A stretch of DNA of 32,025 bases from an uncultured delta proteobacterium (GTDB lineage Bacteria > RBG-13-61-14 > DRUE01): NCBI GenBank assembly GCA_903930515.1, contig CAIYYW010000062.1, positions 1 through 32,025 of the forward strand. The letters are read 5' to 3'. The position numbers and the translations under genes were made by a program. Of this stretch, positions 3,799-32,025 are shown in pieces. Every line of letters begins with the position of its first letter. Position 1 is the first letter of the stretch. The notes under the pieces are model-generated. The model was given only the letters and a program-made list of their open reading frames with translations. It did not search any database and was not told the origin of the DNA.

Positions 3799-4398
3799 TT
3801 AAACCCCCAACTCCCGCGCGCGCAGCCCCTCAATGATCATCCCCAAAAGATCCTCAGTTTTCCTCTTCATTTCCTTCAGGCCGATCCCGCGCGAGAGCGC
3901 CATGTCCAGAGCGGCGATCAGATCGGCCAGGTTCCGGGCGATCTTGCCCGCGTCTTCAAACGCGAACAGCCCCTGGTCCTTCCCCTGTTCCAGGATCTCC
4001 GCGAGCAATTCCTGTTCCCGCCGGGCAAGTCTTCGCTCCTCCTTCTCCAGGCCCTCCCACCGGACCACGCCCGGATAAACCTTCAGTCGGCGGAGGTTCA
4101 ATAGCTCGCCCAACCCCCGCACCCGCTCCAGGAACAGAGCCTGCAACTTCAGAGCCGGGTTCTCGCATTCCGAAATCGCCCGGCTGATCCGGTTGAGCAA
4201 CTCGTTGGTCTCCCCCCGGATCACTGCTAAAAAAATGTCCCGCTTGTCCTCAAAATAATAATAGACCGTGCCCTTCCCAACCCCGGCCTGGAGCGCAATC
4301 TCGTCCATCGTGGTCTTCTTCGGGCCGAATCTTCCGAACAGTCCCCGGGCCGACTCCAGAATGTTTTCTTTCAACTCCTTTTCCCTTTTCCGCGCCAT
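3799..4398 (-). CDS. TetR/AcrR-family transcriptional regulator
   Basis: 199 residues from the ATG at 4398, chosen because AGGAGG stands 8 bases before it on the minus strand and because TetR proteins normally start with a short basic segment like MARKREKELKENI. The reading frame stays open upstream, but that part contains the promoter and operators. The N-terminal helix-turn-helix is clear (about residues 27-60: TTMDEIALQAGVGKGTVYYYFEDKRDIFLAVI); the rest is an all-helical ligand/dimer domain with no recognisable specificity. Two similar palindromes overlap its promoter, so autorepression is likely. Nearest potential targets are itself, mutS downstream and the divergent dksA cluster. The ligand is unknown. 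Confidence 0.9.
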   Translation of the reverse strand: MARKREKELKENILESARGLFGRFGPKKTTMDEIALQAGVGKGTVYYYFEDKRDIFLAVIRGETNELLNRISRAISECENPALKLQALFLERVRGLGELLNLRRLKVYPGVVRWEGLEKEERRLARREQELLAEILEQGKDQGLFAFEDAGKIARNLADLIAALDMALSRGIGLKEMKRKTEDLLGMIIEGLRARELGV

Positions 4399-4416
4399 TT
4401 GCCGATCCTCCTGATT

Positions 4417-4476
4417 TTCGACCAATTTAGTCAAATCGTCAAAATATAGTTTATCGCTTTTAGACCAGTTGGTCAA
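4417..4476 (-). promoter_or_regulatory. Promoter of the TetR-type gene with two operator palindromes
   Basis: On the minus strand TTGACC (4471-4476), a 17-base spacer and TAAACT (4448-4453) form a promoter. One palindrome, GACCA-AC-TGGTC with TTGAC...GTCtAA flanks (4460-4476), covers the -35. A similar site, GACTA-AAT-TGGTC (4417-4434), lies between the -10 and the ribosome site. The centres are about 42 bases apart, close to four helical turns, so two dimers could bind the same face. This is the typical layout of TetR-family autorepression. Confidence 0.6.
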
Positions 4477-4600
4477 GCGCAAAGCTTTTCTTGCCCCCGC
4501 CCTCAATGACGGGTCGGGCAGGATCGGAACCCAAGGCCGGTGAACCGGCCTGGAAAAGTGGAGGCGGGAGGGCAAAGTTTTTTCCGGGACGGTCGGGAAC

Positions 4601-4628
4601 TTGAAAGTTTCCGGAGATATGATATTTT
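4601..4628 (+). promoter_or_regulatory. Possible promoter for the dksA cluster
   Basis: TTGAAA (4601-4606), a 16-base spacer and TATTTT (4623-4628) precede the dksA ribosome site by about 20 bases. Upstream, a perfect inverted repeat GGCCGGT-GA-ACCGGCC (4535-4550) could form a hairpin; it has no T tract. Confidence 0.35.
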
Positions 4629-4659
4629 TAAAAGCTACTCTGGCAGAAGGAGGTTGTTG

Positions 4660-5034
4660 ATGCCGCAGAAAATGAACAAGAAGGATTTGGAAAATTTTCG
4701 GAAACTGTTGCTGCAACAGTTGCGCGAGTTGAAAGACAAACTGGGCGGGGCGGTGGACGAGCTTTCCGAGGAGCCGGAAATGATGGCGGACCTTTCGGAC
4801 CGGGCCACTGCGGAGACCGAGCTTCATTTTGACTTGCGGGTGAAAGACCGGGAGCAGAAGCTGATTGATAAAATCACCGAGGCGCTCGCCCGGATCGAGG
4901 AAGGCGGTTTCGGGGTTTGCGAGCGGTGCGGGGATCTGATCGAGCTGGAGCGGCTGAAAGCGCGTCCGATCGCCACGCTCTGCATTGATTGCAAGACCGA
5001 GCAGGAGCGGGACGAGAAGAGCCGGGGCGAATGA
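4660..5034 (+). CDS. dksA: DksA/TraR-family RNA polymerase-binding zinc-finger protein
   Basis: 124 residues, close to the size of short DksA proteins. The coiled-coil tip carries the DxxDxA motif (D44-L-S-D47-R-A49) that DksA inserts into the polymerase secondary channel, followed by the conserved LRVKDREQKLIDKI helix and a C4 zinc finger (C87, C90, C108, C111). In well-studied bacteria DksA acts with ppGpp to tune rRNA and amino-acid promoters. The start at 4660 is fixed by AGAAGGAGG six bases upstream; the frame is open further 5' but unlike the family. The stop overlaps the next start (ATGA at 5031-5034), indicating translational coupling with the BamD-like gene. Retention of the acidic tip and all four cysteines suggests an active DksA rather than a degenerate TraR-like copy. 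Confidence 0.92.
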   Translation: MPQKMNKKDLENFRKLLLQQLRELKDKLGGAVDELSEEPEMMADLSDRATAETELHFDLRVKDREQKLIDKITEALARIEEGGFGVCERCGDLIELERLKARPIATLCIDCKTEQERDEKSRGE

Positions 5035-30433: not shown

Positions 30434-31573
30434 CTAGACCGGAATCCTCCGGCTGATGATCTCTTTCATTATTTCGGTGGTGCCCGCGTAAATGGTCCCG
30501 ACCCGGACATCCCGATACATCCGCGCGATCGGGTATTCCTCCATATACCCGTAACCCCCGAAAAATTGCAGGCAGTCGTCAACCATATCCTTGAGCGTCT
30601 CGGTGGTCCAGTATTTGGCCATACAGGTCTCGGTCACCACATCCTGCTTATTCATATGCTCCTCAATCAGCCGGTCAACAAAGGCCCGCGCCAGCTCGGC
30701 TTGGGTGTACATCTCAGCCATCTTGAACCGGATGTGCTGGAACTTGGATATCGGACGGCCGAACGCGGTCCGCTCGTTGATGTATTTCCGGGTGATCTCC
30801 AGAACCCCGAACATCCCGGACACGCACCCGATCGCGCACACCAGCCGTTCCTGCTGCAGTTTCTGCATCAGATATAAAAATCCCTTGCCCACCTCGCCCA
30901 GCAAATTTCCCTCCGGGATATCGCAATCCTCAAACGCCAGTTCCGCGGTGTCCTGGCTGTGATACCCGATCTTCTCCAGCTTCCGACCCTTGATGTATCC
31001 CTTGGTCCCGTCCTCCACCAAAAACAGGCTCATCCCCTGGCTCCCCTTTTCGGCCTTGAGATCGGTCTTGGCCGCAACGATCACGGTGTTATTGAGGATG
31101 CCGTTGCTGATGAAGGTCTTGCTCCCGTTGATAATAAAGCGGTCGCCCTTTTTCACCGCGGTGGTTTTGATAGCCTGCAAATCCGACCCGGTGAAAGGCT
31201 CGGTCATTGCCACCGCCAGAATATTCTCCCCGGTGCACGCTCCGGGCAGATATTTTTTCCTCTGAGCCTCGCTCCCGTAGGTGTAGATATAGGGAGCGCA
31301 CACATCCGAATGAAGGATGTACATCACCCCCGGATAGGACGCCATTTCTTCCAGGATCACCACCGAGTAAAGGAAATCCGCGCCCGACCCGCCGTATTCC
31401 TCCGGAACCCACGGGCACAGAAAACCCTGCGCCCCGGCCTTCGTGTAAATCTCCCGCGGACAGATCCCGTCCTTTTCCCATTTCTCGTAATTGGGCGTGA
31501 TCTCCTTTTCCACAAACTTCTTCACCTGGCCCCGAAAAATCTCGTGCTCTTCCTTGAAGATCCTTCTCTTCAT
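30434..31573 (-). CDS. Acyl-CoA dehydrogenase
   Basis: 379 residues, standard length. Visible signatures: LAVAMTEPFTGSDLQAIKTTA (flavin and substrate contact), GSKTFISNG, NERTAFGRPISKFQHIRFKMAEM, CLQFFGGYGYMEEYPIARMYRDVRV and a C-terminal YAGTTEIMKEIISR. In medium-chain enzymes the catalytic base is the Glu of YEGT; here that position is Ala. A Glu occurs instead in KLQQERL (E242), as in long-chain and isovaleryl-CoA dehydrogenases, so a long- or branched-chain type is likelier. The enzyme oxidises acyl-CoA to the 2-enoyl form using FAD and passes electrons to ETF. AAGGAGG lies six bases before the ATG. First gene of a run with the two methyltransferases and the permease. Confidence 0.94.
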   Translation of the reverse strand: MKRRIFKEEHEIFRGQVKKFVEKEITPNYEKWEKDGICPREIYTKAGAQGFLCPWVPEEYGGSGADFLYSVVILEEMASYPGVMYILHSDVCAPYIYTYGSEAQRKKYLPGACTGENILAVAMTEPFTGSDLQAIKTTAVKKGDRFIINGSKTFISNGILNNTVIVAAKTDLKAEKGSQGMSLFLVEDGTKGYIKGRKLEKIGYHSQDTAELAFEDCDIPEGNLLGEVGKGFLYLMQKLQQERLVCAIGCVSGMFGVLEITRKYINERTAFGRPISKFQHIRFKMAEMYTQAELARAFVDRLIEEHMNKQDVVTETCMAKYWTTETLKDMVDDCLQFFGGYGYMEEYPIARMYRDVRVGTIYAGTTEIMKEIISRRIPV

Positions 31574-31758: not shown

Positions 31759-31785
31759 TTATCTTTAAACTAAAGCCCTGACCCC
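31759..31785 (-). repeat. Direct repeat copy 1 (starts GGGGTCAGG on the minus strand)
   Basis: 27 bases reading GGGGTCAGGGCT... and ending ...TTTAAAGATAA on the minus strand. It matches 31987-32013 at about 22 of 27 positions, in the same orientation, 228 bases away. Confidence 0.6.
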
Positions 31786-31883
31786 AATTCCGTTCGCCGA
31801 AGGGCAAGGGCTTTCCGGCCTGTCCTGCGTAGCCTTGGCGAAGCAGGATGGAAAGCTCTTTCCTGGCTGCGAACAATACTTTT

Positions 31884-31908
31884 TTGAGGCGCCAATTTGG
31901 CGCCTCAA
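31884..31908. repeat. 25-base perfect palindrome, family member 1
   Basis: Left arm TTGAGGCGCCAA, one central base, then its exact complement. Same TTGA...CAA-N-TTG...TCAA frame as the next two palindromes. Confidence 0.85.
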
Positions 31909-31910
31909 GG

Positions 31911-31935
31911 TTGAAATCACAAATTGTGATCTCAA
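31911..31935. repeat. 25-base palindrome, family member 2 (one mismatch)
   Basis: Left arm TTGAAATCACAA, one central base, right arm TTGTGATCTCAA. It begins 2 bases after member 1; one mismatch between arms. Confidence 0.8.
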
Positions 31936-31958
31936 AGCGGTAAACGCGGTTGGACATT

Positions 31959-31983
31959 TTGAGGTCGCAATTTGCGACCTCAA
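31959..31983. repeat. 25-base perfect palindrome, family member 3
   Basis: Left arm TTGAGGTCGCAA, one central base, then its exact complement. It directly precedes the second direct repeat. Confidence 0.85.
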
Positions 31984-31986
31984 ACA

Positions 31987-32013
31987 TTAACTTTAAATTT
32001 TAGACCTGACCCC
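31987..32013 (-). repeat. Direct repeat copy 2 (starts GGGGTCAGG on the minus strand)
   Basis: 27 bases reading GGGGTCAGGTCT... and ending ...TTTAAAGTTAA on the minus strand, matching 31759-31785. A block of this kind next to palindromes recalls the surroundings of REP-associated transposase elements, though no transposase is present in the window. Confidence 0.6.
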
Positions 32014-32025
32014 GGGGGCTTGAAA

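Follow-up and report, generated by a model that had tools for sequence, protein, structure and literature searches.

The stretch of DNA analysed here (the window, 32,025 nt) is one whole contig, and close to its right end it carries an array of three palindromes. To its left, a minus-strand gene (30434-31573) encodes an acyl-CoA dehydrogenase. The contig ends at 32025, 42 nt past the third palindrome, and neither a start codon nor a ribosome-binding site was found within these 42 nt. Palindrome 1 (31884-31908, TTGAGGCGCCAA-T-TTGGCGCCTCAA) is perfect, with the half-site CGCC. Palindrome 2 (31911-31935, TTGAAATCACAA-A-TTGTGATCTCAA) has one A.C mismatch and the half-site TCAC. Palindrome 3 (TTTGAGGTCGCAA-T-TTGCGACCTCAAA, half-site TCGC) is again perfect; its 25-base core lies at 31959-31983, and at its full extent it covers 27 bases (13-bp arms, 31958-31984). 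All three are strandless features centred on a single base, and the spacing between centres is 27 and 48 nt. The initial annotation had placed three 25-base palindromes at these core positions with spacers of 2 and 23 nt, and both the positions and the spacers were reproduced. It had also described compensating changes between the arms, which was right for palindromes 1 and 3, while in palindrome 2 the compensation is incomplete because of the mismatch. Translated as codons, the three palindromes read LRRQFGAS, LKSQIVIS, and LRSQFATS.

Under an order-1 Markov model, 0.25 odd palindromes with the score of the array were expected per 32 kb. Four odd-centred palindromes at or above this score were found in the window, namely the three of the array and a 19-mer centred at 4712. 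The dyad symmetry of the three array members is real and far above chance. The 19-mer is a perfect odd palindrome of 19 bp (AACTGTTGCTGCAACAGTT, 4703-4721) within an ORF with a TetR_N domain (3799-4827), and it may have arisen by chance.

The flanks of the array are formed by a dispersed REP-like repeat that is not part of it. On the right, a strandless copy (TTAACTTTAAATTTTAGACCTGACCCC...) of this genome-wide repeat occupies about 31987-32017, and the match stops 8 nt before the contig end. On the left, a second copy with 81% identity lies at 31759-31785, and an imperfect hairpin with 31-nt arms at 31792-31874 belongs to a dispersed repeat in its turn (both without strand). As a pair, the two REP-like copies that enclose the array were placed at 31759-31785 and 31987-32013. 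The repeat (TTTAAAnTnnAGnCCTGACCCC) has dozens of relatives in its own genome and in the congener of that genome. Moreover, a Y1 transposase gene on another contig (G000:C25:11201-12233) is bracketed by copies of it, and the array flanks together with this Y1 gene likely represent a RAYT/REP-type system. The initial annotation had suggested a Y1/RAYT association for the palindromes themselves. This was unsupported, as the copies that bracket the Y1 gene are the array-flanking repeat and not the palindromes. Y1 genes were located on contigs C94, C25, C58, and C22, and the palindromes on C62 only.

The search pattern that had been proposed for further family members, TTGA-N6-CAA-N-TTG-N6-TCAA, was wrong and gave 0 matches even when 2 mismatches were allowed; the correct spacing within the arms is N5. 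With N5, exactly three matches were obtained in the own genome (3.65 Mb, 401 contigs), all of them in the array, and none with the reversed control. A lack of further members in the genome had been named as a reason to abandon the idea of a selected element. Taken literally, the genome has no further members, but the element is explained by homologous loci elsewhere. The N5 pattern was present in 24 of 145 genomes, the own genome included, and the reversed control in one. Outside the own genome, nearly all matches fell inside genes of the ORF6N family (PF10543). The palindrome family was found across phyla in ORF6N coding sequence, where it encodes L[RKIM]xQ[FI]xxS between 'FMFQLTKEE' and 'PYAFTEQG', and often also just before the start codon. 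ORF6N genes have a patchy distribution over phyla, phages, and plasmids, and none was detected in the own MAG.

These distributions bear on the reading of the array as adjacent insertions of a mobile palindromic repeat (REP/RAYT, MITE, or similar to the Rickettsia palindromic element). Such a repeat would account for the tandem copies, and the region does contain true dispersed repeats and the genome Y1 transposases. However, only 3 copies exist in 3.65 Mb, the copies in other genomes are almost wholly confined to ORF6N genes and their leaders, and the link between the palindrome and the ORF6N helix described below is left unexplained. Copy number and distribution mostly refute this reading, which we consider very improbable. 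Two specific candidates were tried and rejected. An identity of the palindromes with REP/RAYT elements was discarded because of the three copies, none of which lies beside a Y1 gene, and an insertion of the Rickettsia type because the matches do not spread over many unrelated genes.

For an unbiased estimate, a motif outside the palindrome was used to pick 80 ORF6N loci in named genomes that represent many phyla, and within the 75 nt preceding 'AFTEQG' the highest-scoring palindrome was assessed against a threshold of at least 10. This score was reached in 65 of the 80 genes, compared with about 0.3% of 5,166 control intervals. A palindrome-only search of viral contigs yielded 4 loci and protein queries were used instead; the viral ORF6N loci behaved in the same way as the 80 loci. 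The arms of the coding palindromes are highly diverse, yet their changes come in pairs (e.g., TTTGCGGTGGAAAATTTCCACCGCAAA, GTTCAAGGTCGAAAATTTCGACCTTGAAC, and TTGATATTCCAAATTGGAATATCAA). A check for an excess of paired changes had been proposed; compensation among family members was massive and extended beyond the three copies of the window. Even wobble positions track the palindrome: a Ser codon that pairs with Val is TCA (56/57), and one that pairs with Ala is TCG (27/28). In addition, the palindrome is read in two frames, as LRSQFATS in some genes and as ELVANCDHL in others (e.g., GTC ACA AAT TGT GAC, VTNCD). Since the same palindromic DNA occurs in another frame, conservation is not at the level of the amino acids.

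The half-sites could be predicted from the encoded proteins. In the putative recognition helix LN-x-xVK-y-N, the residues at positions i and i+4 predict each half-site, with residue i+4 setting base -3 and residue i setting bases -5/-4. In a set of 170 genes, base -3, counted from the centre, was C with a helix Arg (132/132) and A with Asn or Ser (38/38; motif LNxxVK[R/N]N). The residue pair Q,R was associated with TCAC (70/71), E,R with TCGC (37/38), Q,N with TCAA (16/16), E,N with TCGA (9/9), K,R with TTCC (8/8), and R,N with TGCA (7/7). The rarer pairs were K,N with TGGA (4/5), L,R with TTTC (3/3), and R,S with TGCA (1/1). The pair R,R went with TGCC or CGCC in 9 of 12 genes, the other three were hybrids whose right half is TGCC, and CGCC was found with R,R only (2 genes). 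Over 201 genes, the code agreed in both halves in 179, in one half in 19, and in neither in 3. All 20 genes with the second reading frame fit it as well. The code table was frozen before plasmid and phage records were retrieved, and in this out-of-sample set 20 of the 20 genes with a parsable helix obeyed it (18 in both halves, 2 in one half), two more genes that escaped the helix pattern being left uncounted. Of the 201 genes, 198 obey the code in one half or both, as does every unseen gene so counted, and we therefore conclude from sequence that each ORF6N gene carries a coding site predicted to match the helix of its own protein.

The association was also followed on a protein tree from which the helix and palindrome columns had been left out and most branches of which are weakly supported. 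On this tree, the first code residue underwent at least 69 changes, and for Q/CA the independent pairs with good support agreed 8:0 (p = 0.008). In a gene pair that is 95% identical elsewhere, the helix and the palindrome core had switched jointly and the outer arms were kept. In an AlphaFold model (AF2, mean pLDDT 87), both code residues, 32 and 36, lie in helix 27-36 and are separated by one turn, and the palindrome encodes residues 57-64, adjoining a loop with a pLDDT below 50. A Foldseek search against the PDB gave no significant fold match, only weak resemblances to Ski/Dachshund and MarR.

Quasi-palindrome correction (template switching) is an established mutational process that would generate paired changes and might maintain palindromy without selection. 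However, the control intervals do not build up palindromes (0.3%), and the second reading frame, the helix code, and the match of each site to its own type are not predicted by it. The helix code in particular argues strongly against correction as a sufficient cause, and we give this explanation almost no credence.

The initial annotation had further proposed that selection acts on the fold or on the symmetric binding site and not on the sequence. Selection on a symmetric binding site was supported, as the cognate protein's helix predicts which paired changes occur, and selection on the fold was disfavoured. RNA hairpins in the leader and in the ORF6N mRNA with selected pairing would show compensated arm variation; transcripts across the arms can fold, and copies lie near start codons. 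However, on the sense (coding) strand G.T mismatches were not preferred over A.C (24 vs 40 of 1272 pair cells), a comparison that amino-acid constraints partly confound. Furthermore, pairing alone gives no reason why two residues of the helix should predict the core bases, and the innermost AAnTT is mostly complementary although a loop would not require complementarity. A search of Rfam gave no family at the gathering score and only sub-threshold chance matches. The helix code and the absent G.U preference favour DNA over RNA as the selected form, and we regard the hairpin explanation as improbable.

Sites of the same kind were also enriched before the genes. Within 160 nt upstream of ORF6N starts, code-type palindromes occurred at 1.17/kb compared with 0.066/kb, an approximately 18-fold enrichment, with 36 such sites spread over 29 of the 203 genes. 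At least one half matched the type of the gene itself in 20 of the 36 (shuffled mean 14.2, p = 0.012), and the other 16 were of types other than that of their gene. The nearest leader sites of these other genes lie mostly about 29-54 nt before the ATG. Arrays of at least two sites, some of mixed type, precede ORF6N genes in G001 and G002 (same genus and order), and among the loci read, close arrays of this kind were found before ORF6N genes only. Some genomes contain up to 14 ORF6N matches (L094, L092, and L095 of G094, and family relatives), and in several cases a single ORF holds two ORF6N domains, with palindromes that differ in type. Multiple ORF6N types in one genome suggest a diversification of specificity within one cell.

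Solo palindromes of the ORF6N type were observed beside other genes as well. One (GATCACAAATTGTGATC) lies 92 nt upstream of an operon for a BrnT toxin and a CopG antitoxin (L428:229-839), which is a possible target of an ORF6N regulon. Others lie 43 nt (L024) and 196 nt (L418) upstream of DUF1016/YhcG genes. The array of the window might accordingly regulate a gene other than ORF6N past the contig end, such as a DUF1016 nuclease gene or a toxin-antitoxin operon within an ORF6N regulon. The solo sites are in line with such a target, but the confinement of close multi-site arrays to ORF6N genes among the loci read speaks against it. We judge it unlikely and treat it as the main alternative for the array.

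The half-sites CGCC, TCAC, and TCGC of the window correspond to the predicted sites of R,R, Q,R, and E,R proteins, all within the code set, and the array resembles the leaders in G001 and G002 both in mixing predicted specificities and in spacing. The three palindromes are very likely ORF6N sites. We also consider it likely, from comparison of sequences, that together they form predicted operators of mixed specificity for dimeric ORF6N proteins, as in some ORF6N leaders and promoters. Several observations weigh against this reading: the MAG has no detected ORF6N gene, the last 42 nt of the contig offer neither a start codon nor a ribosome-binding site, upstream sites occur in only 29 of 203 ORF6N genes, 16 of these 36 sites are of another type, the PDB search found no significant match, and the protein tree is mostly weak. 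Whether the array is the leader of an ORF6N gene is evenly balanced in our judgement. The regulated gene would probably be an ORF6N gene that either lies past the right end of the contig or has been lost, possibly along with the insertion of the REP-like repeat. In the proposed mechanism, which we regard as the simplest, an ORF6N dimer would place one helix in each half-site. Binding at a leader site may block initiation, and binding at the coding site may act as a roadblock to elongation or loop to the leader, which would make the gene autoregulatory. Leader sites of foreign type would permit cross-regulation by paralogues. Repression is the output that we favour, with some reserve.

Intragenic palindromes were not restricted to ORF6N. 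In DUF1016_N/YhcG genes (L431-L460; e.g., L457, L450, and L455), odd palindromes were observed that fit AATTnTnnnnCA-n-TGnnnnAnAATT and whose arms co-vary strongly, and the best palindrome score was at least 9 in 20 of 30 loci. Bro-N (PF02498) genes (L476-L505; e.g., L482, L497, L481, and L485) contained GGTGACAATTTGTCACC, CAACTGTCC...GGACAGTTC, and GGGTGGGGACAAATTGTCACCCCC, located about 135-160 nt into the domain. Bro-N had been intended as a control family and had palindromes itself, and Rha, the other control, had one true member, which is too few. The palindromes of Bro-N and DUF1016, whose cores differ from those of ORF6N, hint at a broader principle.

In a further reading, the coding palindromes would be an address for gene mobility or recombination, similar to homing, by which the protein marks its own gene for transfer or exchange; the array of the window would then be a landing or remnant site. 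The patchy occurrence of ORF6N across phyla, phages, and plasmids fits this, as do the joint switching of helix and palindrome as a module and the palindromes in DUF1016, a family of PD-(D/E)XK nucleases with ORF6N-type sites beside several loci. However, the ORF6N protein that was scanned has no nuclease or recombinase domain, the upstream sites cluster at operator-like positions, and neither insertion boundaries nor duplications were observed. We hold mobility to be an improbable explanation. Regarding the palindromes as self-matched sites, ORF6N genes, and Bro-N and DUF1016/YhcG genes with their own cores, may form a self-addressed class that must spell the recognition site of its own product. 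A change of specificity would then need a joint change of the helix and of a distant loop-coding segment, the gene would be a portable unit carrying its own address for autoregulation or mobility, and the two-residue code would predict the ORF6N address. We see the arguments for and against such a class as about equal.

ORF6N proteins, which occur commonly in bacteria, plasmids, and phages, now have a candidate site and a testable two-residue code. The predicted targets include the own gene, paralogues, DUF1016 nucleases, and a BrnT toxin-antitoxin operon. Moreover, the coding palindromes represent selection on nucleic acid within coding sequence that is family-wide and linked to the specificity of the protein product. 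In the open literature that was searched, we found neither a described DNA site or recognition code for ORF6N nor a report of family-wide coding palindromes in the own gene. Intragenic operators and autoregulation are already known, whereas a self-cognate, family-wide coding palindrome with a code appears to be undescribed.

Several known systems share parts of this arrangement. The phage repressor and antirepressor regulators of the ORF6N/KilA-N/Bro-N/Rha group are alike in protein family (PF10543, with a weak PF09669 match) and in their occurrence in phages. REP/RAYT systems are alike in their short intergenic palindromes and in the Y1 transposases of the genome; they differ in that the array has 3 copies and the RAYT-associated repeats are its flanks. 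An intragenic operator is described for PurR at purB of Escherichia coli, with repression by a roadblock (He and Zalkin, 1992; reference 8 of PMC4132739), and the likeness is that a repressor site within the transcribed region can block elongation. However, purB does not encode PurR, whereas the ORF6N site lies in the gene of the regulator itself, throughout the family, in two frames, and with a protein-DNA code. The C-proteins of restriction-modification systems are small, horizontally moving autoregulators whose palindromic C-boxes co-vary with the protein. The C-boxes lie in the promoter, whereas the cognate site of ORF6N lies in the coding sequence.
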